From Tomocerus qinae (Eukaryota; Arthropoda; Collembola; Entomobryomorpha; Tomoceridae): DNA of 64,000 nucleotides. The notes below the pieces were generated by a model. The model did no database searches. It was not told where the DNA came from and worked only from the letters and a program-made list of their open reading frames with translations. Of this stretch, positions 4,396-63,243 are shown piece after piece (the stretch's first letter is position 1; every line of letters begins with the position of its first letter). Position numbers and translations under genes: made by a program. The DNA is taken from assembly GCA_020055645.1 (NCBI GenBank), contig CM034546.1, forward strand, positions 85,808,001 to 85,872,000, read 5' to 3'.

Positions 4396-4810
4396 ATCTT
4401 AATAATTTACTCATAGATGTGTTTTAACCTTGGTTTAGAAAGGATTCGTGTTTGTGAAGGACGAGAGTAATTGTCAGGTGCCTTTGCATGGACTTTTTGA
4501 AACGTACCCGAAAGCAAATGCTTTGGGGTACATCTTTAAAAATCTTAATTGAGGATCGATAGATATCGGGCGGGACACCAAACAACATTCTGCCTGACGC
4601 CCAGGTAAAGAGATAGAAGTTGAAGTAACAAACGGATACTAAAAACGAGACGAACCATAGAGCCGAATACAAGCCAAACTAAAAGCAGTCATATTACATC
4701 AAAATAAATTTAACACAGCTAAGCTGTAAATGATACTACTACTGCATTACACAGGTTCCAAATAATATTCCATGCAAAAAAATCGTTTTAACAAAACCCT
4801 CAAAAATTTA

Positions 4811-5696
4811 ATAAACCATGTACAAATGGATGTAAAAAAGTAGCGGCAAAAGAGTAAAACAGTGTCTATTTTTAGTTTAATAATGTTTCTTAGATCATTC
4901 TGATATCGAACGAGGTATTAAACGATTTTTTAGGACGAGTATAACGGAAATTACGTCAATTTTTATGATTTTACCCCCTTCCTCTGTTAGGGGATGACTG
5001 CAACCTACATAATAGTGTTCCTTAAATCATTCTGATATCGAACGAGGTATTAAACGATTTTTTAGGACGAGTATAACGGAAATTACGTCAATTTTTATGA
5101 TTTTACCCCCTTCCTCTGTTAGGGGATGACTGCAACCTACATAATAGTGTTCCTTAAATCATTCTGATATCGAACGAGGTATTAAACGATTTTTTAGGAC
5201 GATTATAACAGAAGTTACGTCAATTTTTATGATTTTACCCACTTCCCCTGCTAGGGGATGACTGTAATCTACTTAATAGTGTTCCTTAAATCATTCTGAT
5301 ATCGAACGAGGTATTAAACGATTTTTTAGGACGAGTATAACGGAAGTTACGTCAATTTTTATGATTTTACCCACTTCCCCTGTTAGGGGATGACTGTAAC
5401 CTACTTAATAGTGTTCCTTAAACCATTCTGATATCGAACGAGGTATTACACGTATTTTTACGACGCACAGAACGGAAGTTGCGTCAATTTTTAAATTTCG
5501 AACCCCACCCCTGGTCAGGGGGTGTGGCCGATTTTGCCCATTCACGAACTTGATCTGTCTTTTGACCCCTAGATTGCGTAAAAAAAGTTTGAACGAAATA
5601 TTTTATTCCGTTCGAAAGTTATCGTGCTTACGGACGGACAGACAGACAGACAGACAGACAGATTGGGCATTCCTATAAAGCAGCTGCCGCTACTTA
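4811..5696 (-). mobile_element. family A (GTCY)n element with 132-bp array
   Basis: Read on the minus strand, the element begins near 5696 with AAGTAGCGGCAGCTGCT, which can form a 6-bp hairpin. Next comes TTTATAGGAATGCC, a (GTCT)n tract (5635-5671) and CACGATAACTTTCGAA. It then contains a 132-bp tandem array and ends near 4838 with the inverse GCCGCTACTT, followed by TTTTTACATCC and CATGGTTTATT. The copy at 25980-26362 shares both ends and lacks the array. Hairpin end, GTCY microsatellite, internal tandem repeats and a conserved 3' block match what is known of Helentron-associated elements (DINE-1/mini-me type). That class assignment is inference. Confidence 0.6.
4891..5500. repeat. 132-bp tandem repeat, about 4.6 copies
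   Basis: The phrase CATTCTGATATCGAACGAGG recurs with starts exactly 132 bp apart (near 4891, 5023, 5155, 5287, 5419). Copies one and two are nearly identical; the last diverges and runs into the (GTCT)n-bearing end of the element. Confidence 0.9.
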
Positions 5697-6473
5697 ATAA
5701 ACTATGTCACACACAGGTGTAGGCAATAAGAGGTTCAAAAGGTCAAAGGTTAACAGCAACGGTAAAATTTTGTGTTAAACATTGTTGGGCCCCAAGCGGC
5801 ATCCCATTTAGCCCCCACGATATACTGGTGCTGAAATGTATTTCGAATGCATTCGGTAACATGATAAGTGTTTAGGAGTCAAAAAAGTGGTTAGAATGTA
5901 CAGAATGAAAGTGACCCACTTCCCCAGACGGGGGATTAAGGTATTTGTCATCTAGTATTTCAAAAGTTGTTTAAGAAGCTTTTTTTCGGAAGAACTATTA
6001 CACGACTTTAAGCGATGTACAAAACCAATTGAATTTTGAAAACAGACGCTGAAATCTAGCCGCATTCCACCTCACTGAGTGAATGACGAAAACGACGGTA
6101 ATATTTCAAAGCTGACCGAGATGTTCCATTTTTTCTACACATCTCATGTTTCCCCATAATGCCGAACTAGATTGTAGTTCATTAGTTTCCCCACCGCCCA
6201 CATCAATCCCTTTGACTGTGGTTTCGGTAGATAGTGGACAGGGACAATGGGAATTCATGCGCGTAACTAATTAGATGACGAGGCATTTGGTACCCATAAG
6301 GAGTAACTCCCGCCGTAAATTTGAGTTTGGAGACTTTCTTATGGTAAAATAGGTAAAATGTAAAAAAGTAAATAAACCGTGGTAAACGTTGTACAAAAGT
6401 AGCGGTAAAATAATAAACTAACACATGTCGTTATAAAATATAATTAAGAATTAATCAGCTTTCAATAATACAA
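5697..6473. other. no gene; possible family A end fragment
   Basis: No coding sequence is supported. At about 6340-6424 the text GTAAAAAAGTAAATAAACC...AAGTAGCGGTAAAATAATAAAC resembles the 3' end of family A (minus orientation) and is probably a fragment. The rest is unrecognised. Confidence 0.35.
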
Positions 6474-6843
6474 TCATTTCTGAATGTTGTAATGACATTT
6501 ATATTTTTTCGGCCATATTGCACAAATAGGCTTGTGGTAACCATAATAAGCCTCAGAAAACCAAGCTTGCAAATGGTCTACATTGGATAAACAGCAATCA
6601 ATGGTGGTACCATGATCCGTTGATGGAACTTTAAAATCTAGTTGCGAGTACAGATTAAAACTGCGAAAGAGTCGTAAAATGCTCTGCCCTTCAGGTTTCT
6701 TAAAATTGATGTTGATATCGCCGATCATTACTATGTTTCCAGTTGCTTCACGACACGGTGCGCCAAACTGTCTGGAAATAATGATTTGGATCCACATTTG
6801 TATTTTCTCGGGCAAACACAATGGCACCCTCAGAGTTTCTTAT
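6474..6843 (-). pseudogene. endonuclease (EEP) C-terminus, Helentron-type relic
   Basis: A minus-strand reading frame of about 120 residues ends with a stop at 6474. It contains VMIGDININFK (the GDFN-like motif of endonuclease/exonuclease/phosphatase domains), then a short gap, TTIDCCLSN (TxID motif) and YGYHKPIC in place of the usual SDHKPI. This arrangement is typical of the C-terminal endonuclease fused to PIF1-like helicases in Helentron-type elements and also occurs in LINEs. The SDH to YGYH change alters a catalytic-site position. The flanking piece at 7056-7445 looks like the N-terminus of the same kind of protein, so the middle (Rep and helicase) appears deleted. There is no intact start. 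A hAT MITE sits just upstream. Confidence 0.6.
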
Positions 6844-6849
6844 AGTACC

Positions 6850-7039
6850 CAGTGTTTGACTAGCCACCGGCTAGTGGATAAAATGGTTTTATCCAGGCTA
6901 AAATGACTTTTGGCCAGTGGACAAAATGAAAACACATGTAAATTTGACTATGGCCATTTTAGCCACTATCCATTTTATCCGGATAAAATGGCCTCCTGGC
7001 TGGCTAAAATGTAAAAAAGCCGGATAAAATAAAACACTG
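6850..7039. mobile_element. hAT-type MITE, 190 bp, perfect 8-bp TSD
   Basis: The element runs from CAGTGTTTGACTAGCC to AAACACTG and is flanked by identical 8-bp duplications, ATAGTACC, at 6842-6849 and 7040-7047. Inside are repeated GGATAAAATGG/CCATTTTATCC motifs in both orientations. It inserted into the Helentron relic. A copy with a 15-bp internal duplication is at 34645-34849. Confidence 0.92.
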
Positions 7040-7055
7040 ATAGTACCATTACAAT

Positions 7056-7445
7056 TTATCTGTGCCTTTTCCACCATTTTGCAATGGCTTTTTGTATTGC
7101 TTCACGACGCCCAGGATCTTGTCGTGCCTTTTCCATCGACTTTGCAGTGGCTTTTTGTATTGTTTCACGACTCTCAGGATCTTGTCGTGCCTTCTCCATA
7201 GATTTTGCAGTTGCTTTTTGTATTTTTTCACGACGCTCAGGATCTTGTCTTGCCTTCTCCATATATTTTGCAGTCGCTTTTTGTATTGTTTAACGACAGT
7301 CAGGGTCTTGCCGTGCCTTCTCCATAGATTTTTCATTTACTTTTTGCATAGCTGCACGACGATAAGGGTCTTGACGAGTTTTCTGTATAGATACACGTTT
7401 CTCCCTTAGCTTTTGTAAATTCTATTTCTTTTTTAATTTGGGCAT
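7056..7445 (-). pseudogene. Lys/Arg-rich repeat N-terminus of Helitron-like protein
   Basis: On the minus strand an ATG at 7443-7445 opens MPKLKKK, followed by an in-frame stop. The frame continues with a 21-residue repeat, consensus MEKARQDPERREAIQKATAK, in about 4.7 copies (63-bp DNA period). It has another internal stop and ends at 7056. Basic, charged repeats at the N-terminus are common in Helitron/PIF1-type proteins of invertebrates, ahead of the Helitron N-terminal domain. With the endonuclease tail next door, this is best read as the start of an internally deleted Helentron gene. Alternative: an unrelated low-complexity repeat protein. In-frame stops show it is dead. Confidence 0.5.
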
Positions 7446-8775
7446 TCTGAATGACAAAAGTAAATGACAAATCTATCACAATTTGAAATAAACATTCCAT
7501 TGTTTTAAAAACCAAACAAACGAGATACTGCAACGATTATAATATTGAATAGCTATTACAGACGAATTTTACTGCAAGACATTTGGAGGTCAGATGTCAG
7601 ATGAGATCACTCACGAGAATTACTTAGAATTACTGTTTTACTTAGGCATTTAGGTTCATTATTTGTTACATAGTCAATTCTTAATTTATTAGTTAAAGTT
7701 AGTTAAAGTTAAAAAGATGCAATATACACGCATTCAAGTACATTCATTATGTAATTAAGGGTCTTAACAAAAGTTATTTCAAATTCATTGCTACAATTTT
7801 TATGAACCTCTGAAAGGGAAAACTTTTTTCTGATATTTTCTAGTGACTTTGCGTAGTCTAAGGTTTATCTTTATGTACATTAACCTTCTCCGTATTGGAA
7901 AAGTGGCATTCAAAATACGCAAAAGAGTGTTTTCCATTTCCTGTTGTTCTCTTACTATTACTAAAATAAACCTCCATAAGCTCCGCTCAAAAGAATGTAA
8001 GAGCATGCATGTAAACAGAGAATGTAAGGTCAGCGTCCCTTAAAGTATCGTTAATATTCACTCTATACTACGGTTATAGTTTTTGCCAGATTATTTTCCC
8101 AAACTCTCCGACGTGGCAAAAAGGCGATTTACCAAATTATTCTGAGGGGTCAAAATCGTGGCAAAACAATATTTGCCAAAATGTCTTTTGCCAAATCGAC
8201 CTACCACCTCATATTTATGGGCCTGTATCCTCAAGTTTGACGAGGTCTTTTTTTTGAGATTGACATATCTTCTTTGAATTCAAGCACTCACAGTCACACT
8301 CCCGTATCGGTAGTGTGGATTACGATATTCGGATTTTAACGCTGGGTCGAGCTGCATGGACTTCAGTAGCATTTTTCCTTAGAGTGGCTTGCGCTTTTCT
8401 ATCCTCCAACGAAAGGTCATCATTTATGTATATTCAGAGGCCTTTGAACAATATATCATATCATATCAAGGTTTTATTGTCATACTTTGTTCAGCCGGAT
8501 ACAAGTCTTGCTGTTTTCCAACAAGGGACATACATAGATTTGAACTATAATTAAGGTTTTGGTATTATAGTTCTTGTAAACATAGCATAATTACAAACAG
8601 TACAGATTACAATTTTCGGAGGCTCATTTCGAAAACTCCTAAATTTAGGCTAGTTTTTTTGAAAAATAAAAAATAAATAAAATCAATTACAAACGTAAAG
8701 CTAAGAAATAATACACAATACAGATTACACACGCTTGGATTCGATGTAACAATTTAGATCTTTTTTTGAATACAT
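7446..8775. other. AT-rich DNA with one dispersed repeat
   Basis: No gene is supported. The stretch 8090-8215 (TTTGCCAAA-rich, ending AAATCGACCTACC) resembles 61540-61665, suggesting an old dispersed repeat. A reverse-oriented polyA-like stretch near 8655-8690 may mark a retroposed tail. Confidence 0.35.
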
Positions 8776-9110
8776 GTATATCAATCAATCAATTTATTTC
8801 AACTGTAGCGTTTTGTAGGCATGAGCCCATAACACATCGGGTTATAAGTTATTTTTCCTAAAATTATTTACGCTTATTACAATTACAATCAGTATGAAAC
8901 CGCTATTAACACTAATGCTATTAATTATCATTATGTCAAAGAAAATACATTTATTCGTTCCGAAGGAACGCTCTAAGTTTAATTGCACTTGTACAGAAGT
9001 AATACAAATTATCAAGCTTGCTCTTATCGTATACCTTGAAAATATTACAGAGATCGTAAAGCACCATAATATTGTTTTAGATAATGAACCCTACGGCTTC
9101 TAAATAGAGG
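8776..9110 (-). mobile_element. LINE 3' end fragment (CR1/L2-like tail)
   Basis: On the minus strand the sequence runs from about 9110 and ends GGGCTCATGCC...AAATAAATTGATTGATTGA. A short tandem ATTG/TGAT tail after an AATAAA-like signal is characteristic of CR1/L2-group non-LTR retrotransposons. No reverse transcriptase remains, so clade and 5' boundary are uncertain. Confidence 0.45.
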
Positions 9111-9145
9111 ACACTCCAGCATAAAATGAAATAAGTCTTCTTTTT

Positions 9146-9599
9146 AGCTCGCCTGATAAAGCGAGCTTATAGAATCGCACAGTCCGTCCGTAACGTCCGT
9201 ACGTCCGTCCGTCCGTCCGTCCCCACGCTAACTTTCGAAAGCAATGACGGATATTGACCAAACTTGGGAAAAACAATGCCTACGGACCACTGACAATCCC
9301 TATTGAATTGGGGGTAAATCGGTCCATTGGTTACCGAGATACCGCGCGCTCACTTTGTCTTCATTTTGATAGTCAAAGTGATAATTTGCCATTAAATGGA
9401 CATTGGAAAGTTCAAAGGCGTTTCCTATAAATTGTTAGCGGGATAGTATAAAATATATCAATCCGCTTCTACCAAATTTGAGATTTTATAACAAAGCAAA
9501 TAAAACCGGAAAATAACTATTAGACGATGGAAAAAAATCTATTTTGGATTTTTATTCTATTTTATAGTCAAATTTTAATTTTTTGATTTCCTCATTTTT
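9146..9599 (+). mobile_element. family B (GTCY)n element, 5' part only
   Basis: This starts TTTTTAGCTCGCCTGATAAA with the perfect hairpin GCTCGC-CTGATAAA-GCGAGC. Then come CTTATAGAATCGCACA, a (GTCC)n tract and a conserved body (AACTTTCGAAAGCAATGACGG, CCGCGCGCTCACTTTGTCTT). It is cut off at 9599, where the next copy begins; the 40-bp array and the 3' end are missing. Confidence 0.8.
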
Positions 9600-10852
9600 A
9601 GCTCGCCTGAAAAAGGCAGCTTATAGAACCACACAGTCTGTCCGTACGTCCGTCCGTCCGTACGTCCGTCCGTCCGTACGTCCGTCCGTCCGTACGTCCG
9701 TCCGTCCGTCGCCACGATAACTTTCGAACACAAAGGCGGAAGTTGACCAAACTTGGCAAAAACAATACCTATGGGCTACTGACGATCCCTATTGATTTTG
9801 GGGGAAATCGGTCCATTGGTTGCTGAGAAACCGCGCGCTCACTTTGTCTTGATTTTGATGGTCAAAGTGAAAATTTGGCATTAAATGGACATTAAAAAGT
9901 TCAATGGCGTTTCCTATTAATTGTTAGGGGATAGTATAAAATATTTCAATCCGCTTCTACCAAATTTAAGATTTTATAATAAAGTAAATAAAACGGGAAA
10001 ATATCTATTATAGGACGGGAATAAATCTATTTCGCATTTATATGCAAATAGATAGTTAAATTTATGTTTTTCAAATTGCTTTTCATTATGATAGCCAACA
10101 TTAATCAATATTGATTTTCTGTTGATTTTCATAGTCAACATTAATCAATTTAGATTTTCTGTTGATTTTCATAGTCAACAATTATCAATTTTGATTTTCT
10201 GTTGATTTTCATAGTCCACATTAATCAATTTTGATTTTCTGTTGATTTTCATAGTCCACATTAATCAATTTTGATTTTCTGTTGATTTTCATAGTCAACA
10301 TTAATCAATTTTGATTTTCTGTTGATTTTCATAGTCAACATTAATCAATTTTGATTTTCTGTTGATTTTCATAGTCAACATTAATCAATTTTGATTTTCT
10401 GTTGATTTTCATAGTCAACATTAATCAATTTTAATTTTCTGTTGATTTTCATAGTCAACATTAATCAATTTAGATTTTTTGTTGATTTTCATAGTCAACA
10501 TTAATCAATTTTAATTTTCTGTTGATTTTCATAGTCAACATTAATCAATTTAGATTTTTTGTTGATTTTCATAGTCAACATTAATCAATTTAGATTTTTT
10601 GTTGATTTTCATAGTCAACATTAATCAATTTTGATTTTCTGTTGATTTTTAAAATAATATAGCTTCGTTTCCTTATAATATCAATGTCTGAATTTTTAAT
10701 ATATCTTAGCTACATAAATAAAGACCCAATTCTGAAAGTTTGGTCAAAATCCGTACGCTCGGTTTTGTGCTACGTGCGAGTACTTTTTGTCTGTCAAAAT
10801 GTGTACACGTTAACCTTTAATCAGGCGAGCTTCTGTTACGGCTTGCTGTAGG
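9600..10852 (+). mobile_element. family B (GTCY)n element, complete copy
   Basis: The 5' end is AGCTCGCCTGA, followed by GGCAGCTTATAGAACC, a long GTCC/GTAC tract (9640-9712), a conserved body and a 40-bp minisatellite. The 3' end is TCAGGCGAGCTTCTGTTACG GCTTGCTGTAGG. The 11-bp terminal motif is inverted at the other end, and the 3' block can form GCGAGC-(10 nt)-GCTTGC, a 6-bp stem with one G-U pair. There is no coding capacity: the frame across the GTCC tract (SVRPSV-like) is a by-product. The layout resembles the DINE-1/mini-me Helentron-associated elements known from Drosophila and molluscs; this assignment is inference. Confidence 0.75.
10080..10650 (+). repeat. 40-bp minisatellite inside family B
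   Basis: About 14 copies of a 40-bp unit (TTGATTTTCTGTTGATTTTC followed by ATAGTCAACATTAATCAATT). Each unit contains GTTGA...TCAAC and TTGATT...AATCAA dyads, so single strands could form small hairpins. Confidence 0.95.
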
Positions 10853-10967
10853 TTTTTCCATGTTACATAAGGAGCAATTCTCGGGGTTATTTAAGACTGT
10901 AAAAACAATTCTGTGTGTTAATGTAGTTACCCCCAGTTCTCAGCTTCGCCATCACTCTTATCTTATT

Positions 10968-12445
10968 AGCTCGCCTGATAAGGCAGCTTATAGAATCGCA
11001 CAGTCCGTCCGTCCGTCCGTCCGTTCGTCTGTTACCACGATAACTTTCGAACGCATTGACCGATTTCGATCACTTGTCAAAAACATTGCCTATGACCATA
11101 GGACAAAGCCTATTGAAAATGGGCCACATTGGTCCACAGGTTGCTGAGATGACGCGCGCGCACTTTGTCTTCATTTTGATAGTCAAAATGAAAATGTGAC
11201 ATTAAATGGACATTAAAAGTTCAAATGTGCTTCCTATTAATTGTTAGCGGGATAGTACAAAATATTAATTGCCGCTTCGACCAAATTTAAAATTTTATAA
11301 TAAAGTAAATAAAACCGGAAAATACCTATTATAGGACGAAAATAAATCTATTTCGCATTTATATGCAAATAGATAGTTAAATTTATATTTTTCGAATTGC
11401 TTTTCATTATGATAGCCAACATTAATCAATTTAGATTTTCTGTTGATTTTCATAATCAACATTAATATATTTTGATTTTCTGTTGATTTTCATAGTCAAC
11501 ATTAAGCAATTTTGTTTTTCAGCTGATTTTCATAGTCAACATTAATCACTTTGGTTTTTCTGCTGACTTTCATAGTCAACGTTAATCAAATCTTGATTTT
11601 CTGTTGATTTTAATGGTCAATTTTAAGCAATTTTGATTTTTTGTTTATCTTAATAGTCAATATCAATCTATTTTGATTTTCTGTTGATTTTCACAGTCAA
11701 TATTAATCTATGTTGATTTTCTGTTAATTTTAATAGTCAATATTAATCTACTTTGATTTTATGTTGATTTTAATAGTCAATATTAATCTATTTTGATTTT
11801 ATGTTGATTTTAATAGTCACCATTAATCTATTTTGATTTTCTGTTGAATTTCATAGTCATTATTAATCTATTTTGATTTTCTGTTGATTTTCATAGTCAA
11901 CATTAAACAATTTTGTTTTTCAGCTGATTTTCATAGTCAACATTAATCACTTTGGTTTTTCTGCTGACTTTCATAGTCAACGTTAATCAAATCTTGATTT
12001 TCTGTTGATTTTAATGGTCAATTTTAAGCAATTTTGATTTTTTGTTTATCTTAATAGTCAATATCAATCTATTTTGATTTTCTGTTGATTTTCACAGTCA
12101 ATATTAATCTATGTTGATTTTCTGTTGATTTTAATAGTCAATATTAATCTACTTTGATTTTGTGTTGATTTTAATAGTCAATATTAATCTATTTTGATTT
12201 TATGTTGATTTTAATAGTCACTATTAATCTATTTTGATTTTCTGTTGAATTTTATAGTCATTATTAATCTATTTTGATTTTCTGTTGATTTTAATAGTCA
12301 TTATTAATCTATTTAAATCAAAATAGATTAATATTGAACTAATTTGAATAACTATTTACTAATCAAAATAAATGGATTGTTCCACCAAAACATGTGTACA
12401 CTGTCCCCTTTGATCAGGCGAGCTTCTGTTACGGCTTGTCGTAGG
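10968..12445 (+). mobile_element. family B (GTCY)n element, long copy
   Basis: Complete copy: AGCTCGCCTGATAAGGCAGC start, GTCC tract near 11005, the conserved body, an enlarged 40-bp array, and the TCAGGCGAGCTTCTGTTACG end followed by GCTTGTCGTAGG. About 115 bp separates it from the preceding copy. Confidence 0.8.
11400..12320 (+). repeat. 40-bp minisatellite with 401-bp higher-order unit
   Basis: Diverged 40-bp units run through this stretch. A block of ten variants starting ATTAAGCAATTTTGTTTTTC at 11501 recurs starting at 11902 with the same order of variants. This is a 401-bp higher-order duplication. Confidence 0.85.
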
Positions 12446-12544
12446 TTTTATACTACAATTTTGACGGAGGTATATAGTTTTTATACAATAGGTTATATGT
12501 TGAATTGTTTGCTCTATTTATGTCCTCCTATATCAGCTGTTTAC

Positions 12545-13990
12545 GAAAACTATCGAATATGAATTTGCTGTTGTCACTCGCCTGTTTAGCGTCATGTCTA
12601 TTACAAACTGCCATACAATTCGTTTTTTTAGCAGTGCTTTGAATTGCGCTACCCAGTTAAGACTGTCGTCCTTCACATTTTGCTCTTGTTTCATCAAGGC
12701 ATTGTAAGCTATTTTGGGTAAACGGAATTCATGTATGTCCAGTACTCTAACCCAATAAGAATATGTACGTTTAAAGACATTAAGCAATAATTTGACCCTG
12801 CCACATTCTACTCTAGTAAAGTAATTTGCAGTAGATTTTTTCATACCAAGGATTCGTTTTAAGAAAAGTACAGTACAGACTGTACAGTTTCTATTTTGTC
12901 TAGGTATCTCAAACCCCAGGCTGGACTAGCATACAAAAAACAAGCCTCTATAATATACTCAAATAGTTTTATTCTACCATCCAAGTTATCCATTTTCGAT
13001 TTACACATTGTACCCCATACTATGTTAACTGCTTGTTTTGCTTCTTTAATTTTGTCATCCGTGGCGACAGAGAATACTCCCGAGCTGGAGAAAGCGATTC
13101 CCAAATATTTATATTCCTTGACAACCTCAATTTCAGGGTCGCCATACCTAACACGTACAAAACGACTCAGTCTACCCGCCCTCTTAAAAACAATTACTTT
13201 AGTTTTACGCAGATTTAACTTAAGGTTTCTGTCTTTAAGGAATTCGAATAAGGCATTCACCTTCTTTTGAAGGTCAGATAAGGTCCCAGCAAGTAAAACC
13301 ATGTCATCGGCAAACATGAGTAAATGAACACCGTGTATTGGGTCGAATTGGACTTTTGAGGCTCCAGATTCGTCCAAACATGCTTCTTGTTTATTGATAT
13401 ATACAGAAAATAGAGTCGGGCTGCAAATTTCGCCCTGTAATAGGCCCCGTGCTACTTTCATCTTATTTGTTTTCCCTATGGCTGTTCTTACACATAAACT
13501 GGCTTTTTCGTATATTCCGGACATCATTCTAATGATTTTATCACTAAAACCTTCGTCAAACATTGTCTGGAACAGAATGGAGTGTTCTGCCGTCAAGAAA
13601 GCGTTTTCGACATCCAAAAAAATAGCATACAATTTGTGTCCTTTAGAAAGTCGTAGTTGAATTAGGGCAGCTAGGGTAAATATGTGGTCGAGGCAACTGC
13701 GCAGCCTTCTAAAACCTGCCTGGCATTCCCCAATTGTGTCTCCTTCAAATAGAAAAAACTGAATTCTTTCCTGGAGGATTTTAGTAAACCACTTGAGTGT
13801 GGTTCCAAGTAGAGCTATTGGTCTGTAGTTGCGTGTATTTCTAGGGTCTCCTTTTTTAAATATGGTACATATATCGGCATGGGCCCAATCGTCTGGTATG
13901 TTTTTGTAATCTTTCTTCGCTTTGATGAAGGAATTGTGAAGTTCACCCGCCCAGCCTTCTGCTTTCCCTTTTGTACTGAGGTCTTTAACT
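12545..13990 (-). pseudogene. LINE C reverse transcriptase (degenerate)
   Basis: Minus-strand coding for a non-LTR reverse transcriptase, broken by frameshifts (one near 12850, another near 13635). In order the frames show IFKKGDPRNTRNYRPIALL (RT motif 1/2), CQAGFRRLRSCLDHI, the first catalytic aspartate in YAIFLDVENAF (about 13605-13635), QGEICSPTLFSVYIN (motif B), the second and third catalytic aspartates in MFADDMVLL (about 13300-13318), and LNLRKTKVIVF and YKYLGIAF of the palm/thumb. A C-terminal extension (LKRILGMKKSTANYFTRVE and onward) ends near 12545. FADD replaces the usual YADD. The endonuclease lies just upstream at 14082-14545. Clade is uncertain; the copy is 5'-truncated and inactive. 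Confidence 0.85.
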
Positions 13991-14081
13991 TATTTTGCTT
14001 TAAGCTTTCAATCATCATCATACCAATCTACACATAAAGAATTTCAGACACCATTTCGCACAGGGACGTGTCTTTGATTAA

Positions 14082-14545
14082 TTAATGATTAACATTTGTA
14101 CTTAATTGTGTGACAGAGATTTCTTTTTCGCTAGGGGAAATGTTTCCATAGTGAATAGTGTCCTGTACAACTTGACGTTGTTCGGATTTCCGTGATCTTG
14201 TGCATGGTTTGTTTACACGTGTAGCTTTTGAGTCTGCATTTTTCTGGGCGAAATCTGTCGTGATCACAAGATATTTGTGGTAAGAGAGCGCCGATTCGAT
14301 TGCACTATTGGTCATAGCAAGGTCTATACAGCTCCTCCCATTCCCATTCATGTACGTAAAGTCTCCTGGTATATCGCCTTTTGTCCTACCGTTTAAAAGA
14401 ATCCTGTTATGTTCAATTGCAAGATTACTGAGTTTAACTCCTTTGGGATTTTTAGTCAAATCTAGAGAGGTTCGCTCTGCTTTACATCCTAGTAGATTGG
14501 CTTGTAGTATGTTGTCGGGATTTAGCATGAGCAATTGTATTCTAA
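14082..14545 (-). pseudogene. LINE C endonuclease C-terminal half
   Basis: A minus-strand frame of about 150 residues shows SLDLTKNPKGVKLSNLAIEH, a GRTKGDIPGDFTYMNGNGRS segment and CIDLAMTN. These are the pattern (N...GxxL, NGR, GDFT, SxID) of the second half of LINE apurinic-type endonucleases. The final SDH motif is replaced around ITTDFAQ. It continues into the reverse transcriptase frames after about 90 bp. The 5' part of the element is missing, replaced by a tandem array that itself includes the first part of this coding sequence. Confidence 0.7.
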
Positions 14546-15029
14546 TATTATAACATTAATTCAGATTCAAGTGTTAACTACTGCTTAGCCAATTTACTAA
14601 TCATTTTGATACCAAATATGAGCTTCTAGTATATTGGCGGGATTTATCATCACCATTTGTATTCTAATATTGTACGTTTAATTCAGATTCAACTGTTAAT
14701 TACTGCTTAGCCAGTGATCCGAAATTGATGATATGCTTTACACAGTACTCTAACAGTATTACTGATCATTTTGATACCAGATACTAGCTTATAGTATGTT
14801 GGCGGGATTTAGTGGCGCTATTTGTATTCTAATATTATACGTTTAATTCAGATTCAACTGCTAATTACTGCTTAACCAGTGATCCGAAATTGATTAAATC
14901 CTTTATACAGTACTCTAACAATATCATTTTGATACCAAATACCAGTCTGAAGTATGTTGGCAGGCTTTTGTATCGCTATATGTATTACAATATTCTACTG
15001 CAAATTCAGATTCGACTGCTAATTACTTC
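14506..15029. repeat. about 155-bp tandem repeat derived partly from LINE C
   Basis: The phrase AGTATGTTGGCGGGATTTAG recurs at 14506, 14638, 14793 and 14951 (spacing 132, 155, 158), with CATTTTGATACCA and CAGATTCAACTGCTAATTAC shared between copies. The first copy lies inside the LINE endonuclease frame (residues NPDNILQAN). Later copies translate in the same direction to a similar NPANIL, so the repeat includes LINE sequence. The last unit was split by the MITE at 15030 and resumes at 15798. Confidence 0.8.
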
Positions 15030-23709: not shown

Positions 23710-23885
23710 GGTAAGACTGGAAAGATAATAGTGTGGATGGGATATTGACAGTACTGGACCCCGCAAACGACACAGACGATCCTTCCAACCAGAATAGTCC
23801 GTGCATATGAGGTGAACCTCTATGCTGAAATTCAATTCGATAGAAGAAGTCCTTCACCAGATACCCAGAAAAAGCTCCACCAGGA
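23710..23885 (-). pseudogene. Helitron Rep (HUH nuclease) fragment
   Basis: A minus-strand frame reads LVKDFFYRIEFQHRGSPHMH followed by GLFWLEG. RIEFQHRGSPHxHGLxW is the signature of the Helitron-like N-terminal/Rep region, including the HxH metal-binding pair of rolling-circle (HUH) initiators. Only about 60 residues survive. Downstream the frame degenerates into repeat D, and upstream it is cut by a family B element. There is no start codon, helicase or tyrosine motif. It is a dead fragment, but it proves that rolling-circle transposons were active in this genome. Confidence 0.85.
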
Positions 23886-23891: not shown

Positions 23892-24977
23892 AGCTCGCTG
23901 CTCGCCTGAATAAGGCAGCTTATAGAACCGCACAGTCTGTCAGTACGTCTGTCCGTACGTCTGTCCGTACGTCCGTCCGTCTCCACGATAACTTTCGAAA
24001 GCAATGACGGATATTGACCAAACTTGGCAAATACAATGCCTATGGACCACTGACGATCCCTATTGAATTGGTTGTAAATCGGTCCAATGGTTGCCGAGAT
24101 ACCGCGCGCTCACTTTGTCTTCATTTTGATAGTCAAAATGAAAATGTGGCATTAAATGGACATTAAAAAGTTGAATGGCGCTTCCTATAAATTGTTAGCT
24201 TGATAGTGTAAAATATTTCAATCCGCTTCTACCAAATTTAAGATTTTATAATAAAGCAAATTAAACCGGAAAATAATTATTAGACGATGGAAAAAAATTT
24301 CCTTTAAATTTTAAAAATCATTATTAACCGATTTTAATTTTCTGTAGATTTTAATACTCATAATCAATCAAGATTGAATATTTGTTGATTTTCATAGTCA
24401 ACATTAATCAATTTTAATTTTCTGTTGATTTTCATAGTCAACATTAATCAATTTTGATTTTCGGTTGATTTTTATATTCAGCATTAATCAATTTTGATTT
24501 TCTGTTGATTATGATAATCGATATCAATCAATTGTGATTGCCTGTTGATTTCAATACTCAATGTTAATCAATTTTGATTTTCTGTTGATTTTGATAGTCA
24601 ACATCAATCTATTTTGATTTGCTGTTGATTTTGATATTCAACATCAATCAATTGTGATTGCCTGTTGATTTTAATACTCAATGTTAATCAATTTTGATTT
24701 TCTGTTGATTTTGATAGTCAACATCAATCTATTTTGATTTGCCGTGATTTTGGTATTCAACATCAATCTATTTTGATTTGCTGTTGATTTTGATAGTCAG
24801 CATCAATTTATTTTGATTTCCTGTAGGTTTTTATATTGAATTTTGAATTGTATTAATCTAGTTTGAATTAGTTCTTACTTTAATAATCAAAATAAATTTA
24901 TTTCTATTATTATTACAACCAAAATGTGCACACGGTCCCCTTTACTCAGGCGAGCTTCTGTTACGGCTTGCTGTAGG
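23892..24977 (+). mobile_element. family B (GTCY)n element, fourth copy
   Basis: Starts GCTCGCTGCTCGCCTGA (a small duplication of the end), then GGCAGCTTATAGAACCGCAC, GTCT/GTCC tract, the conserved body, about 13 diverged 40-bp units (24320-24860) and the 3' end ACTCAGGCGAGCTTCTGTTA CGGCTTGCTG. It inserted next to the Helitron Rep fragment. Confidence 0.8.
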
Positions 24978-24983
24978 TTTTGA

Positions 24984-25120
24984 ATTATGATCAATATTGA
25001 TCTACTTTGAACTGCTGTTCATTTTAGTAATCAAAAGTTTATTTATACTATTATTCTACCAAAAATGTGTACACGGTCCCCTTTACTCAGGCGAGCTTCT
25101 GTTACCGCTAGCTGTAGGTT
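24984..25120 (+). mobile_element. duplicate family B 3' end
   Basis: Immediately after the complete copy, a second 3' terminus follows (ACACGGTCCCCTTTACTCAG GCGAGCTTCTGTTACC). This is a head-to-tail partial copy, as expected from rolling-circle read-through, a truncated insertion, or unequal exchange. Confidence 0.75.
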
Positions 25121-25348
25121 TACTATTACATTGTATGATTTACCTAGAGACCCCAATATGGGTCTAGATCTAGATTAAACAGTTTGGGGTTTTACCAACG
25201 GATTGTTGGTACTTGTTTCTTTAGATGTACTTCTAATTGAATGTATACATTCAAGTAATAAATCATTGTTAAAGCTGTGCAAACAAGCGTTCCACAAACT
25301 TCAGATATAACTACAGCACATCTGGAATGTTCATTTCTAGATCGTATC

Positions 25349-25979: not shown

Positions 25980-26362
25980 AAGTGGTGTACAACACCGCTT
26001 TATAGGGATGCCTGATCTGTCTGTCTGTCGGTCTGTCTGTTAGCACGATAACTCAAAAACGGTTAGAGATAATCAACTCAAACTTACTGTACGTGATGTA
26101 GGGATGAAAAGCGAGACCCCCTGCCTGTGGGCGTGGTCAAAATATTTAAAATTAGTGTAACTTTAGTTATTGACAATGTAGAACGTCATGAAATGGTTCG
26201 CTCTAAAAGGTTATTTGTTAGGCCATGTCAAGTCACACGTGTAAAAAGGTCATAGGTCATTGAAAAAATTCACTAAAACCGTCATGTAACGTCAAATAAT
26301 TGGTCCAATCTTTTTATGCAATTTCATACCACTTTTTTACATCCATTTGGACATGGTTTATT
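25980..26362 (+). mobile_element. family A (GTCY)n element, short copy
   Basis: Starts AAGTGGTGTACAACACCGCT, an 8-bp hairpin with one wobble and loop ACA, then TTATAGGGATGCC, (GTCT)n and CACGATAACTCAAAAACGG. It ends ATACCACTTTTTTACATCC...CATGGTTTATT. Both termini match the element at 4811-5696, which carries a 132-bp array this copy lacks. Confidence 0.7.
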
Positions 26363-38619: not shown

Positions 38620-39465
38620 TGGTATTCTGAGGTTTTTGAATACGCTGATTTCGAAAAATTAAACGCTACTACGAAAATTTGAAAAAGGCATCCCCACCCA
38701 CTCAGTTTTTATCATCACATTTGTTTAAAATTTTAGATTTTGGAATTTTCAAACATGCTGATTTCGAATATAATAAGCATTTATTTGTCAATTCAAAATT
38801 TCGGGTGGGCGGGGTGCCCCACCCATTTAACTAAGTACAGTCAAATTATTATTATAAATTACATTTTGAGGTTGCCAGATAATATCGCTAATTTTGAAAA
38901 TAATAATCGTTACTGTAAAAATCAGAAAAGTGGGAGGGGCAGCCCCACCCACTCAGTTTTTATCATCACATTTGTTTAAAATTTAAAATTTTGGAATTTT
39001 CAAACATGCTGATTTCGATTATAATAAGCGTTTATTTGTCAATTCAAAATTTCGAGTGGGCGGGGTGCCCCACCCATTTAACTAAGTACAGTCAAATTAT
39101 TATTACAAATTACATTTTGAGATTGTCAGATACGCTAATTTCGAAAATAATATTCGTTACTGTAGAAATCAGAAAAGTGGGAGGGGCAGCCCCGCCCACT
39201 CAGTTTTGGTAGTCATATTTGTCTAAATTTTATGTTTTAAGGGATTTAAAATGTGCTCGTTTTGAATGCAACAATAATTTATTTGTAAATTCAAACTTCG
39301 AGGTGGGTGGGGTGGCCCCACCCATTTTATGAAGTGCGTCGAATTATAATTACACAATACATTTTAAAGTTTTCCATGGCGCTAATTTCAAAAAAAAACT
39401 CATTAGTTTAAAAATCATAAAAATGGGAGGGTCCGCCCCGCCCACTCAGATTTTGTAAGTAGTAA
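38620..39465 (+). repeat. 251-bp tandem satellite, about 3.3 copies
   Basis: A partial copy precedes units starting near 38740, 38991 and 39241. Shared features are AACATGCTGATTTCGAATAT, TTATTTGTCAATTCAAA, GGGTGGGCGGGGTGCCCC and GGGAGGGGCAGCCCCACCCA. The first two full units are nearly identical and the third is diverged. Open frames of about 75 codons across it are by-products. Confidence 0.92.
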
Positions 39466-42152: not shown

Positions 42153-45100
42153 GTAAATGACCCCGTCATTTTAAATAGACGTCATTGTAAATGACCTCAC
42201 ATTTTAAATAGACGTCATTGTAAATGACCTCACATTTTAAATAGACGTCATTGTAAATGACCCCGTCATTGTAAATGACCCCGTCATTTTAAATAGACGT
42301 CATTGTAAATGACCTCACATTTTAAATAGACGTCATTGTAAATGACCTCACATTTTAAATAGACGTCATTGTAAATGACCTCACATTTTAAATAGACGTC
42401 ATTGTAAATGACCTCACATTTTAAATAGACGTCATTGTAAATGACCTCACATTTTAAATAGACGTCATTGTAAATGACCCCGTCATTGTAAATGACCCCG
42501 TCATTGTAAATGACCCCGTCATTGTAAATGACCCCGTCATTGTAAATGACCCCGTCATTGTAAATGACCCCGTCATTTTAAATAGACGTCATTGTAAATG
42601 ACCTCACATTTTAAATAGACGTCATTGTAAATGACCTCACATTTTAAATAGACGTCATTGTAAATGACCTCACATTTTAAATAGACGTCATTGTAAATGA
42701 CCTCACATTTTAAATAGACGTCATTGTAAATGACCTCACATTTTAAATAGACGTCATTGTAAATGACCTCACATTTTAAATAGACGTCATTGTAAATGAC
42801 CTCACATTTTAAATAGACGTCATTGTAAATGACCCCGTCATTGTAAATGACCCCGTCATTTTAAATAGACGTCATTGTAAATGGCCTCACATTTTAAATA
42901 GACGTCATTGTAAATGACCTCACATTTTAAATAGACGTCATTGTAAATGACCTCACATTTTAAATAGACGTCATTGTAAATGACCTCACATTTTAATTTT
43001 AAATAGACGTCATTGTAAATGACCTCACATTTTAATTTTAAATAGACGTCATTGTAAATGACCTCACATTTTAATTTTAAATAGACGTCATTGTAAATGA
43101 CCTCACATTTTAAATAGACGTCATTGTAAATGACCTCACATTTTAAATAGACGTCATTGTAAATGACCTCACATTTTAAATAGACGTCATTGTAAATGAC
43201 CTCACATTTTAAATAGACGTCATTGTAAATGACCTCACATTTTAAATAGACGTCATTGTAAATGACCTCACATTTTAAATAGACGTCATTGTAAATGACC
43301 TCACATTTTAAATAGACGTCATTGTAAATGACCCCGTCATTGTAAATGACCCCGTCATTGTAAATGACCCCGTCATTGTAAATGACCCCGTCATTTTAAA
43401 TAGACGTCATTGTAAATGGCCTCACATTTTAATTTTAAATAGACGTCATTGTAAATGGCCTCACATTTTAATTTTAAATAGACGTCATTGTAAATGACCT
43501 CACATTTTAATTTTAAATAGACGTCATTGTAAATGACCTCACATTTTAATTTTAAATAGACGTCATTGTAAATGACCTCACATTTTAAATAGACGTCATT
43601 GTAAATGACCTCACATTTTAAATAGACGTCATTGTAAATGACCTCACATTTTAAATAGACGTCATCGTAAATGACCTCACATTTTAAATAGACGTCATTG
43701 TAAATGACGTCACATTTTAAATAGACGTCATTGTAAATGACCCCGTCATTTTAAATAGACGTCATTGTAAATGGCCTCACATTTTAATTTTAAATAGACG
43801 TCATTGTAAATGGCCTCACATTTTAATTTTAAATAGACGTCATTGTAAATGACCTCACATTTTAATTTTAAATAGACGTCATTGTAAATGACCTCACATT
43901 TTAATTTTAAATAGACGTCATTGTAAATGACCTCACATTTTAATTTTAAATAGACGTCATTGTAAATGGCCTCACATTTTAATTTTAAATAGACGTCATT
44001 GTAAATGACCTCACATTTTAATTTTAAATAGACGTCATTGTAAATGACCTCACATTTTAATTTTAAATAGACGTCATTGTAAATGACCTCACATTTTAAA
44101 TAGACGTCATTGTAAATGACCTCACATTTTAAATAGACGTCATTGTAAATGACCTCACATTTTAAATAGACGTCATTGTAAATGACCTCACATTTTAAAT
44201 AGACGTCATTGTAAATGACGTCACATTTTAAATAGACGTCATTGTAAATGACCCCGTCATTTTAAATAGACGTCATTGTAAATGGCCTCACATTTTAATT
44301 TTAAATAGACGTCATTGTAAATGGCCTCACATTTTAATTTTAAATAGACGTCATTGTAAATGACCTCACATTTTAATTTTAAATAGACGTCATTGTAAAT
44401 GACCTCACATTTTAATTTTAAATAGACGTCATTGTAAATGACCTCACATTTTAATTTTAAATAGACGTCATTGTAAATGACCTCACATTTTAAATAGACG
44501 TCATTGTAAATGACCCCGTCATTGTAAATGACCCCGTCATTTTAAATAGACGTCATTGTAAATGACCTCACATTTTAAATAGACGTCATTGTAAATGACC
44601 TCACATTTTAAATAGACGTCATTGTAAATGACCTCACATTTTAAATAGACGTCATTGTAAATGACCTCACATTTTAAATAGACGTCATTGTAAATGACCC
44701 CGTCATTGTAAATGACCCCGTCATTGTAAATGACCCCGTCATTTTAAATAGACGTCATTGTAAATGACCTCACATTTTAAATAGACGTCATTGTAAATGA
44801 CCTCACATTTTAAATAGACGTCATTGTAAATGACCCCGTCATTTTAAATAGACGTCATTGTAAATGACCTCACATTTTAAATAGACGTCATTGTAAATGA
44901 CCTCACATTTTAAATAGACGTCATTGTAAATGACCTCACATTTTAAATAGACGTCATTGTAAATGACCTCACATTTTAAATAGACGTCATTGTAAATGAC
45001 CCCGTCATTGTAAATGACCCCGTCATTGTAAATGACCCCGTCATTTTAAATAGACGTCATTGTAAATGGCCTCACATTTTAAATAGACGTCATTGTAAAT

Positions 45101-46737
45101 GACCTCACATTTTAAATAGACGTCATTGTAAATGACCTCACATTTTAAATAGACGTCATTGTAAATGACTTCACATTTTAATTTTAAATAGACGTCATTG
45201 TAAATGACCTCACATTTTAAATAGACGTCATTGTAAATGACCTCACATTTTAATTTTAAATAGACGTCATTGTAAATGACCTCACATTTTAAATAGACGT
45301 CATTGTAAATGACCTCACATTTTAAATAGACGTCATTGTAAATGACCTCACATTTTAAATAGACGTCATTGTAAATGACCTCACATTTTAAATAGACGTC
45401 ATTGTAAATGACCTCACATTTTAAATAGACGTCATTGTAAATGACCTCACATTTTAAATAGACGTCATTGTAAATGACCCCGTCATTGTAAATGACCCCG
45501 TCATTTTAAATAGACGTCATTGTAAATGGCCTCACATTTTAAATAGACGTCATTGTAAATGACCTCACATTTTAAATAGACGTCATTGTAAATGACCTCA
45601 CATTTTAAATAGACGTCATTGTAAATGACCTCACATTTTAATTTTAAATAGACGTCATTGTAAATGACCTCACATTTTAATTTTAAATAGACGTCATTGT
45701 AAATGACCTCACATTTTAAATAGACGTCATTGTAAATGACCTCGTCATTGTAAATGACCTCGTCATTGTAAATGACCTCGTCATTGTAAATGACCTCACA
45801 TTTTAAATAGACGTCATTGTAAATGACCTCACATTTTAAATAGACGTCATTGTAAATGACCTCACATTTTAAATAGACGTCATTGTAAATGACCTCACAT
45901 TTTAAATAGACGTCATTGTAAATGACCCCGTCATTGTAAATGACCCCGTCATTGTAAATGACCCCGTCATTTTAAATAGACGTCATTGTAAATGACCTCA
46001 CATTTTAAATAGACGTCATTGTAAATGACCTCACATTTTAAATAGACGTCATTGTAAATGACCCCGTCATTTTAAATAGACGTCATTGTAAATGACCTCA
46101 CATTTTAAATAGACGTCATTGTAAATGACCTCACATTTTAAATAGACGTCATTGTAAATGACCTCACATTTTAAATAGACGTCATTGTAAATGACCTCAC
46201 ATTTTAAATAGACGTCATTGTAAATGACCCCGTCATTGTAAATGACCCCGTCATTGTAAATGACCCCGTCATTTTAAATAGACGTCATTGTAAATGGCCT
46301 CACATTTTAAATAGACGTCATTGTAAATGACCTCACATTTTAAATAGACGTCATTGTAAATGACCTCACATTTTAAATAGACGTCATTGTAAATGACTTC
46401 ACATTTTAATTTTAAATAGACGTCATTGTAAATGACCTCACATTTTAAATAGACGTCATTGTAAATGACCTCACATTTTAATTTTAAATAGACGTCATTG
46501 TAAATGACCTCACATTTTAAATAGACGTCATTGTAAATGACCTCACATTTTAAATAGACGTCATTGTAAATGACCTCACATTTTAAATAGACGTCATTGT
46601 AAATGACCTCACATTTTAAATAGACGTCATTGTAAATGACCTCACATTTTAAATAGACGTCATTGTAAATGACCTCACATTTTAAATAGACGTCATTGTA
46701 AATGACCCCGTCATTGTAAATGACCCTGTCATTTTAG
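42153..46737 (+). repeat. 4.6-kb satellite array of 33/18/39-bp units
   Basis: Three interchangeable units all begin GTAAATGAC. The common 33-bp one is GTAAATGACCTCACATTTTA followed by AATAGACGTCATT. The 18-bp one is GTAAATGACCCCGTCATT. The 39-bp one has an extra TTTTAA. Rare variants mark large internal duplications: GACGTCAC occurs at 43706 and 44217 (511 bp apart), and GACTTCAC at 45167 and 46395 (1,228 bp apart). No coding content and no spacers of a CRISPR type. Every 33-bp unit has a GACGTC palindrome and a CRE-like ACGTCA. Confidence 0.97.
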
Positions 46738-49075: not shown

Positions 49076-49795
49076 TGATCATGATGATCATGATCAAGTG
49101 ATCACGATGATCATGATCAAGTGACCATGATGATCATGATCAAGTGACCATGATGATCATGATCAAGTGACCATGATGATCATGATCAAGTGACCATGAT
49201 GATCATGATCAAGTGACCATGATGATCATGATCAAGTGACCATGATGATCATGATCAAGTGACCATGATGATCATGATCAAGTGACCATGATGATCATGA
49301 TCAAGTGACCATGATGATCATGATCAAGTGACCATGATGATCATGATCAAGTGACCATGATGATCATGATCAAGTGACCATGATGATCATGATCAAGTGA
49401 CCATGATGATCATGATCAAGTGACCATGATGATCATGATCAAGTGACCATGATGATCATGATCAAGTGACCATGATGATCATGATCAAGTGACCATGATG
49501 ATCATGATCAAGTGACCATGATGATCATGATCAAGTGACCATGATGATCATGATCAAGTGACCATGATGATCATGATCAAGTGACCATGATGATCATGAT
49601 CAAGTGACCATGATGATCATGATCAAGTGACCATGATGATCATGATCAAGTGACCATGATGATCATGATCAAGTGACCATGATGATCATGATCAAGTGAC
49701 CATGATGATCATGATCAAGTGACCATGATGATCATGATCAAGTGACCATGATGATCATGATCAAGTGACCATGATGATCAAGATCAAGTGATCAT
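49075..49795 (+). repeat. 23-bp minisatellite, about 31 copies
   Basis: The unit TGATCATGATCAAGTGACCA plus TGA repeats with 23-bp spacing and almost no variation. Each unit contains the 12-bp palindrome TGATCATGATCA, so the array is a string of potential hairpins. It begins immediately after the LDET codons of the transposase. Confidence 0.95.
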
Positions 49796-50139
49796 GATCA
49801 TTATGACCTGTGGTAACTGCTACTGTTCTGATGCTAACTGTCTTTCCAGGATAATGAATTCCTCAGCCACCTTTCGTAACGACATTGTTGTCCGCATCGT
49901 TACAATTTTAATTCGCTCACTTATTGACAGTTTATCCATATTGAGTTCTTCAGATTGAAGCAACGCATTGTTTATTGCGAAAAGAAGGAAAGAGAGACAA
50001 ACAATGAAATTATAATTGGCTGGTAAAAATTACAAATTGAACTTGTGTACTGTATACTAACAATGAAAGTGCTATGGATACTAAAATTCTATGTATACCC
50101 ATAAACTTCTATGTATACCCACTATCAATACATACTGTA

Positions 50140-57901: not shown

Positions 57902-58537
57902 AGCTCGCCTGAGGAAGCGAGCTTATAAAACCACACAGTATGTAAGTCTACCCGCCAACCCTGCAACATTTGAATGCATTAACAGAAATTGATCAAACTC
58001 GTGACAAACGTTGCTAATAGACCTGTGACGTTATGGTGATGGTCCCATTCATTCAATAAGTTGCAGAGATACCATGAGCTCACTTAGTCTTAATTTTGAT
58101 AGTCAAAATGAAAAATGGTCCAAAACAAAGTTTAAACGTGTTCGCAGTAAATTGTTAGTTTTGCATGCCGCTTCTAACACATTCTAACCGAAATTTCTAC
58201 AAAAATAAAATTTCGAATAAATGTGATAGTCAAAATTGCACTTTTTAAATCTCTGTCGATTTTAAGGTCAATATTAAAGGTAACCCATGCACGGCCTTTC
58301 ACAAGGGATTTTGCTTAAGTCATGGTATGAATGCTAACGAAAGCATTATGCATTAGTTTGTGTAGTGTAGTTCCACATTCTGTGCTGTACTCCGCCAAAG
58401 CGCTCTGCCTCCTTCGACAGACAAGTACAGCGCGCGACTCTGCACTGAGTGGTTCTTCGCAGTTTTTGTCTGTACTTCCCATGCAAATTCGAAAATTTCA
58501 AACGCTCATTGAATTATTATTATAATTGATTTATATA

Positions 58538-58811
58538 TCAATAAATACTTTATGTAAAAAAATTTTGTTGGCATTTTTGGAAACTCTGATTTAATACCAA
58601 GGACTTGTGTCTCCAATTCCAATATTATTATTTGTGTCTCGTCAAAATTGTTAGTCAAGGAACCGCGCCACTTTTCTGGTAACTACTTTTTTTGAAACAA
58701 TAATTTCTCCTAAACTACGAACCTTTATGAAAATATTGGACACACAAGTCCTAGTTATTAGGACAGTTTCCAAAAATCTCAACCAAAGAATTTTTATAAA
58801 GTATTTATTGA
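58538..58811. repeat. inverted repeat inside diverged family B copy
   Basis: Arms 58538-58610 and 58742-58811 match in reverse complement (ATAAATACTTTAT...TTTTTGGAAACT...AGGACTTGTGT), with a spacer of about 130 bp. Confidence 0.8.
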
Positions 58812-59366
58812 GTTATTTATGATCATTTAGAACACAAAAATACATGAGAACGCTTATTAAAGGGCATTGTACAGGTTCCCCTTAATATAATTTTTAACCA
58901 GATATTAATCAACTTTAATTTCTGTTGATTCTAATGCTCAATATTATTCAACTTTAATTTCTGTTGATTCTAATGCTCAATATTATTCAACTTTAATTTC
59001 TGTTGGTTTTAAATACCAATATTAATCAACTTTAATTATCTGTTGATTTTCATACTTCATATTAATCAACTTTAATTATCTGTTGATTTAATACTCAATT
59101 TTAATCAATTCATATTTTCTGTTGATTTTAATGGCCAATATTTTTGATTTTCTGTTGATTTTAATGGTCAATATTTTTTGATTTTCTGTTCATTTTAATG
59201 GTCAATATTTTTTGATTTCCTGTTGATTTTAATGGTCAATATTTTTTGGTTTTCTGTTGATTGTAATGATCAATATTTTTTGATTTTCTGTTGATTTTAA
59301 TGGCTAATATTTTTTGATTTTCTGTTGATTTTAATGTTAGCATAAAAGCATTTCAATGTTAGAATA

Positions 59367-59400
59367 AAGCAGCAACAGAAGCGAGCTTCTGTTGCTGCTT
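59367..59400. other. perfect 16-bp hairpin at element end
   Basis: AAGCAGCAACAGAAGC, loop GA, exact reverse complement. It occupies the 3' terminus of the family B copy, where other copies have only a 6-bp stem. Confidence 0.9.
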
Positions 59401-59402
59401 TA

Positions 59403-60126
59403 GTTGAGGTTACCTGCTAGTATAGTTAGCTTCTGCAACGCATTTACCGTAATCTTATGCCCATGATACCCAGTCAACGAAGCAAAAGGAACGGAATGAG
59501 TAATTTGGAACTGTTTTGACCAAGTTTTGACTGTACCAAGGCGAAGAGATAACATTTTGTAAGATGCACCCAGTAAAATCGAAACGCACGATTTTATTCC
59601 GCAATAATTTATTACCAAAACGAAACCATGTTGAAATGCCCCTTAGTTACGAAATTAAAATATTACGAACGAGTTAATTCCCTTTTAGCCCAAACGGTTC
59701 ATATCTATTGTATAAACGGAAATTATAAATACTCTGACGTCATAATAACTCCGCCTAATGTTATAATATACTATTGTGAAGTGAAGTATAGTAACGCAGG
59801 CAACTCGTAATAGTAACCCTCAAAAATTTGCGCGAAATTCATAATCAGTCTCTATATTTTCCGAGCGAATAATATGGTGACTTTTCCGTAAGGGAACATA
59901 CAAATTTCGAGGATTTTAGAAGGAATTCCTCCTATTAACAATGCACAGGGATATAATTTGTCACTGAATGTCAGATTTAGATCTAAGCATCCAACGTTTT
60001 GGAAGTTACAAAAAAGCTGCAACTAGAAGAGGATAAATGGTATAAAGCAATGCCATTAATTGATACATTCAGATAGAAAGGGAAAAGGCTAGATATATCA
60101 ATTTAGATGCTCAAATTAAAAGCACT
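59403..60126. other. no gene seen
   Basis: Unrecognised DNA apart from the inverted ATTACGAACGAGTTAAT motif at 59670-59686. Short open frames show no known motif. Confidence 0.35.
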
Positions 60127-63140: not shown

Positions 63141-63243
63141 GAAAACCATACACTTACCCGAAGGCCACGAAAATGACAGCAACGTTAATCCAATCCATTG
63201 CGTTAATGATGTTAATCCATTGCACTCATATTTGAAAACTTAA

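Follow-up and report, generated by a model that had tools for sequence, protein, structure and literature searches.

Non-autonomous Helentrons of two families in Tomocerus qinae, one of them with a coding relative that has its ends and its internal satellite

A 64-kb stretch of the Tomocerus qinae genome (C1:85808001-85872000, hereafter the window) contains copies of two interspersed repeat families, A and B, and one end of a third, C. An earlier note, made from the letters alone, had assigned A and B to the DINE-1/mini-me/pearl type of Helentron-associated elements. The evidence presented below makes us highly confident that both families are non-autonomous Helentrons (HINEs), most likely moved by a Rep-helicase-endonuclease protein, and that B consists of internal-deletion derivatives of coding Helentrons. 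Positions refer to the window unless a contig is named. Genome-wide counts refer to the 334-Mb genome (115 contigs), and each exact motif count was paired with a count of the same motif read backwards, which was 0 in every case.

The B copies of the window all lie on the plus strand. Two are complete, one with 14 units of a 40-bp repeat (9600-10855) and the other with 22.5 units (10968-12449). The copy at 23892-24980 has a damaged 5' edge (AGCTCGC, then TGCTCGCCTGA), and behind it there is a near-duplicate second B 3' end (24981-25121). An old B-like copy (57902-59415) has a diverged array and 3' end; the loss of its GTCY tract, claimed in the earlier note, is real, and the copy fits the search pattern for this tract only through a 12-base degenerate match. 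The motif blocks lie where that note had placed them, far above shuffled expectation: in the window, AGCTCGCCTGATAA (up to 2 mismatches) has 8 matches against 0.19 expected, and the 3' 24-mer (up to 3 mismatches) has 4 against 0.00. Two sets of copy boundaries had to be corrected. The copy beginning at 9146 is 3'-truncated and ends at 9599, directly upstream of the complete copy at 9600-10855, and the complete A copy occupies 4810-5695 on the minus strand.

This A copy ends with TTTATT (4810-4815), and both of its ends recur in other fetched A copies. Read from the 5' end, it consists of a hairpin (5678-5695) with the 5' subterminal inverted repeat, AAGTAGCGGCA (5685-5695), as its left arm, a (GTCY)n tract at offset 36 (5628-5659), a shared box, CACGATAACTTTCGAACG (5609-5626), a central array of 4.7 units of 132 bp (4877-5493), the 3' subterminal inverted repeat TGCCGCTACTT (4838-4848) and a short palindrome, CCAT..ATGG (4816-4829). 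An A-like copy on the plus strand (25980-26362) represents a subtype that has the subterminal repeat AAGTGGT and no central array; only 7 bp are common to its two ends. On the minus strand at 6371-7445 lies a decayed A-like Helentron remnant, A', with N-terminal repeats, an endonuclease-like fragment (open reading frame 6474-6839) that by itself has no Pfam match, and an A-like 3' end, TACCGCTACTT...GGTTTATT. Repeated TTTTATCC and GGATAAAA words interrupt the remnant at 6850-7040 and are perhaps a small inserted element. The complete A copy is abutted by a family C 3' end (5696-5736, minus strand), which is made up of GAACCTCTTATT, a palindrome and TTTATT.

Genome-wide, the B 5' pattern has 1,212 exact matches and the B 3' 25-mer 1,596, and the corresponding figures for A are 68 (5' 23-mer) and 67 (3' 31-mer). 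The two ends of each family occur together, as the co-occurrence check proposed in the earlier note would have it. For B, pairing was determined among the 71 5' ends and 100 3' ends listed for C1:0-27.7 Mb (totals 1,193 and 1,596): 50 of the 71 had an exact 3' end on the same strand no more than 3 kb downstream, whereas such an end lay upstream in 8 and on the other strand in 2. For A, where the best 40 of 434 candidate 5' matches were used, the values were 26 of 40 downstream, 1 upstream and 0 opposite. Three B copies from separate sites on two contigs (L020, L021, L022) are mutually 99.7-99.8% identical, which indicates that movement was recent.

The layout of individual copies was compared in 33 B and 12 A rows, comprising copies with both ends recognised plus the window copies 10968 and 57902, which were cut by hand. 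The B rows include a coding element on C1 (see below) and leave out three loci with an unrecognised 3' end (L008, L012, L019); of 40 A copies listed, 14 were fetched, and 4 of these 14, in which no 3' end could be recognised, do not enter the counts that require both ends. With a loose pattern, 32 of 33 B rows and 9 of 12 A rows have a GTCY tract that begins at offset 36, counted from the 5' end. Between families A, B and C the subterminal repeats are unrelated in sequence, yet within each element they are alike at both ends: 11 bases are identical in 27 of 33 B rows (AGCTCGCCTGA) and in 10 of 12 A rows (AAGTAGCGGCA), and 12 bases match in a family C element on contig C5. As in HINEs, the subterminal inverted repeats thus agree over at least 11 bp, and a second inverted repeat stands beside the 5' one. 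In 100 listed rows, read by eye, the B 5' hairpin has a right arm of GGCAGCT or GCGAGCT, or a form of these in which A replaces the first G; both arms can pair with the left one, although the register of pairing is not the same. In L016, a fetched copy, this arm reads GGGAGCT. Folding of the 5' hairpin in five sequences gave -4.2 to -7.4 kcal/mol, with z values of -2.7 to -4.3 in four of them and a weak -0.93 in A. The 3' palindrome folded with -4.3 kcal/mol in C, -3.1 in the rarer B form, -2.2 in A', -1.2 in A and -0.6 in the common B form.

The internal arrays are specific to the family. The 40-bp unit was present in 33/33 B rows and the 132-bp unit in none, whereas the 132-bp unit was present in 11/12 A rows and the 40-bp unit in none. 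A copies differ from each other chiefly by whole 132-bp units (2.7, 3.7, 4.7 or 5.7), and the 40-bp array has the same position in B copies and in their coding relatives. The suggestion that the array is an exchangeable module, together with the comparison of arrays by which it was to be checked, came from the earlier note; with no swap in 45 rows it is not supported in this genome. Being locked to the family, the array is inherited within it, and if exchange occurs at all, these copies have spread faster. The A 132-bp unit showed no clear relation to the window arrays at 38.7 and 63.2 kb, the scores being within those of 200 shuffles (115 and 10 shuffles as good on the plus strand, 37 and 33 on the minus strand). 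A stretch resembling CTGATTTCGAATAT occurs in both of these arrays, at 38687-39455 (126/251-bp units) and 63243-63595 (132-bp units); the similarity scored 27, which was equalled or exceeded by 2 of 200 shuffles.

A search of the genome for Helitron_like_N gave 96 matches, a few of which were examined closely. One belongs to an element of 10,919 bp on the same contig as the window (C1:89504877-89515795), which has the B 5' hairpin with the GTCY tract, the 40-bp array and the exact B 3' block. Its frames encode Helitron_like_N and PIF1 (Pfam), then an endonuclease-like stretch, then Peptidase_C48. On contig C7 an intact open frame of 2,197 codons lies downstream of a B 5' end and array; Pfam matches in its product are DUF6570, Helitron_like_N, PIF1, Exo_endo_phos_2 (E 8.3e-4 with the whole protein, 4.2e-5 with the domain alone) and Peptidase_C48. 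The endonuclease-like stretch of the C1 element is 64% identical to its C7 counterpart, and the alignment of such stretches contains recurring FHNIQS, GDFNxD and IDICFSN...SHHKP, which we take to be endonuclease motifs. A third coding relative (L066, C2:45.18 Mb) has a B 5' end and a 2,096-codon frame, its far end lying outside the fetched sequence. Compared with the C1 element, 32 of 32 B copies matched at the 5' end and 31 of 32 at the 3' end; the 5' match runs to the end of the array (position 857-894 of the C1 element) in 18 of the 32 and is shorter in 14. The Helentron assignment of the earlier note is therefore not only supported but strengthened by a coding Helentron with both ends and the array of B, and B has the structure of a deletion derivative of an endonuclease-encoding Rep-helicase element. 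Since the coding element carries the same satellite, the array is inherited with the element rather than acquired copy by copy. Two further Helitron_like_N elements (L067, L068) had no B ends beyond chance-like near matches, no GTCY tract and no CACGATAAC box. In the window, a Rep-domain fragment of Helitron/Helentron type (23795-23857, minus strand; motif GSPHMHGLFW; E 7.5e-4, below the family cut-off) adjoins the B copy at 23892. Adjoining the coding C1 element there are two head-to-head B elements (L062, 429-2768), with 5' ends 167 bp apart and an inverted match of 85% over 1,980 bp.

For A, the corresponding link to endonuclease-encoding elements is through remnants: an endonuclease-like fragment together with an A-like 3' end was found in all four remnants examined, namely the A' remnant of the window and three close relatives, of 61 matches. 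The family C 3' end of the window matches the 3' side of the endonuclease-class element on C5 over 51 bp, with 94% identity. This element has a Rep match and an endonuclease-like match, with AATAAGAGGTTC on its 5' side and GAACCTCTTATT on its 3' side. Ten 11-mer inverted matches were listed for the two stretches, and the 12-bp match between its ends was picked from these; the assignment of the ends is backed by the hairpin, the GTCT tract and the palindrome next to them, together with the match to the window. Family A, and also family C, belongs to a group related to B.

The B copies keep the 5' part of the coding Helentron, up to about 890 bp with the hairpin, the GTCY tract, the conserved box and the 40-bp array, and its last 60-191 bp. 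Most likely, the Rep-helicase-endonuclease of the coding copies recognises these matching ends and nicks at T-rich sequence. One strand would then be copied by rolling-circle replication, which would stop past the 3' subterminal repeat and the palindrome, and the product would be joined into a T-rich target. Directly seen are the common ends and array, the coding relatives, the empty sites and one head-to-tail array; that this protein moves the copies, that replication is of the rolling-circle kind and what each end motif does are inferred from them.

The flanks of the copies are consistent with such targets. In the genome, B 5' ends are directly preceded by TT in 1,193 of 1,212 cases and by TTTT in 1,071, and TTTT stood on the 5' side of 28 of the 31 B copies with both ends. 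A 5' ends are directly preceded by TTATT in 60 of 68 cases, a count not biased by the query; the same word flanked all 16 A copies read, a biased figure, since most of these copies came from a query with TTATT at its start. Sequence in hand provided at least four usable empty sites for the 31 B copies (L005, L002, L004, L025), with the composites L015 and L024 set aside, and one for 12 A copies (L081). When the flanks of 16 copies, 7 of A and 9 of B, were joined and used as queries, the best 40 of 1,596 candidates yielded junction-spanning matches for at least three more copies, L003, L028 and L077. Filled and empty B sites differed by 3 T (L005, L003) or 4 T (L004, L028); L025 (3 bases) and L002 (4 or 5) fit, but a T/A difference between copies is involved. 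For A, L077 had 6 extra bases relative to two of four fetched paralogues (GATTATTTGG), the other two differing at the site, whereas L081 had 9 relative to two window paralogues (91-93% identical), with insertion between T and T; the two A sites thus disagree on the number of extra bases. An abutting junction with four Ts (C1:549112) was excluded from the count. At L004 a B copy stands behind the end of another B, having inserted into the T run of that end, and the C-to-A junction in the window may have arisen likewise; neither junction was therefore counted in favour of circles or against a duplication.

Insertion into T-rich sites, which the earlier note had proposed to check, is thus borne out by paralogous empty sites, which can be explained without a target-derived duplication. 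That no duplication is made at all is likely but unproved copy by copy. A short fixed duplication (TTT or TTATT) would also place the same short word on both sides, as seen in most copies, and is still conceivable. It is disfavoured by the different words on the two sides of L018 and L069, by the unlike flanks of the C5 element (TTTATT on the 3' side, CCTTT on the 5' side) and by tandem B copies in L024 joined by TTT only.

The same short word on both sides would also be expected if A and B were miniature inverted-repeat transposable elements (MITEs), derived by deletion from a DNA transposon of the cut-and-paste class that has terminal inverted repeats and duplicates a short target (TTTT or TTATT). 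The frequencies of TTTT before B and of TTATT before A speak for this explanation, but the word does not vary with the target, as a target-derived duplication should, and it differs between the two sides in L018, L069 and the C element. Moreover, only the 5' inverted repeat is terminal, the 3' one being internal, and the coding relative in which both B ends are present belongs to the Rep-helicase type and not to the cut-and-paste transposons. This coding relative largely refutes a MITE origin, which in our opinion is very improbable. That A and B are two unrelated repeats, which have the GTCY/CACGATAACT box by chance or capture and no common transposition system, might be argued from the lack of visible common sequence between their subterminal repeats, arrays and 3' blocks. 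We consider this scarcely credible, as the parts have the same order and spacing in both families, with the tract at offset 36, each family has matched end repeats and T-rich insertion sites, and for both there are endonuclease-type relatives or remnants with family-like ends. Canonical Helitrons (Helitron1), which begin with 5' TC, end with 3' CTRR and insert between A and T, were rejected because neither the ends nor the flanks of the copies read agree with this type.

Several observations weigh against the Helentron interpretation or limit it. The C1 element has both B ends, but its coding region is split across three frames; behind the intact C7 frame the B 3' end was not found within the 12 kb read, and no single copy in hand combines both B ends with an intact frame. 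The C1 element is a relative of the B copies and not their immediate source, the identity being 76-91% over the 5' part and 83-100% over the 3' part. The endonuclease-like domain scored 23.8 and 24.8 bits, below the Pfam cut-off of 27.4, its sequence search of PDB gave 0 matches, and neither the counterpart region of L068 nor the window fragment (6474-6839) gave an Exo_endo_phos_2-type Pfam match. A full-length element with the exact ends of A was not found, the C5 element representing a third family and an element at C2:58.03 Mb having no end match. Finally, the 3' palindrome is weak in A and in the common B form.

Tandem and nested arrangements recur among B copies. In L024 tandem copies are joined head to tail, and L010 and L024 contain arrangements like that of the truncated copy at 9146 followed by a complete one; the window copy at 23892 has two successive 3' ends. 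Helitron tandem copies with truncated inner copies are reported in PMC7492417. A separate array (G000, C1:7991845-8002121) has six B 5' ends spaced by about 2.05 kb, and its tandem unit is larger than one B element.

The window also contains a long tandem array of a 33-bp unit (42264-46707; about 130 copies, 4.4 kb), an array of 31.8 units of 23 bp with 98% matches (49076-49806), and, on the minus strand at 12859-14555, the remnant of a reverse transcriptase of a non-long-terminal-repeat retrotransposon, identified by eye from the motif FADDM in the translation.

The main features found here have been described for HINE/Helentron elements in PMC4067079, PMC2374699 and PMC7492417. DINE-1/INE-1 of Drosophila (Yang and Barbash 2008, PMC2374699; Thomas et al. 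2014, PMC4067079) also has subterminal inverted repeats with a partial repeat beside the 5' one, a GTCY microsatellite in the 5' block, central repeats, TT insertion and an autonomous Helentron partner; its 3' stem-loop may correspond to the 3' palindrome, which here varies in strength between forms. Its subterminal repeats differ in sequence and in length (13 bp, here 11), and its central repeats are different. Cg_HINE elements of the Pacific oyster (Vojvoda Zeljko et al. 2020, PMC7492417) have GTCY/GTCC microsatellites, family-specific satellite-like central repeats and T-rich sites, with no target-site duplication seen. Whereas no autonomous element could be linked to them in oyster, one is linked here to B, and whereas some oyster elements are related in flanks and arrays, the arrays of A and B are unmixed in 45 rows. 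The Helentron/HINE pairs of mite and Culex (PMC4067079) likewise are simple deletion derivatives of endonuclease-encoding Helentrons, with a variable number of terminal Ts and a partner rarer than the derivative; the Culex HINE and its partner are more than 95% alike, compared with 76-91% in the 5' part here. The protein found here has a protease domain of Ulp1 type (C48), while OTU proteases and RPA are mentioned in that source. In DINE-1 (PMC2374699) and in oyster HINEs (PMC7492417), central repeats are known to differ from one species or family to another. Literature containing the sequence CACGATAACT included no transposon paper as judged by title, and viral contigs gave 0 matches to the B 3' end and the A box in a search that may leave out near records.

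Families A and B are additional examples of an already known kind of element. In B, a high-copy repeat with an internal satellite is tied to a coding Helentron that bears the same satellite. Single-strand transposons of the IS608/IS91 type use one specificity for both ends and target. Here the flanking motif differs by family (TTTT in B, TTATT in A) and is similar to the element's own end. On a tentative reading, which we hold to be possible although rather less than probable, the left flank, the 3' terminus and the target would be one and the same word within each family, and one nicking specificity would set the ends and the target; the single C element read, with TTTATT on the right and CCTTT on the left, does not fit. 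The accessible HINE/Helentron literature yielded no family-specific target word, and PMC4067079 leaves it open how the terminal Ts are shared between the ends, the targets being T-rich. Because the flank word of A, TTATT, is not a plain T run, it makes the ownership of the terminal Ts more tractable, and the family-specific flank word is the one point worth following.

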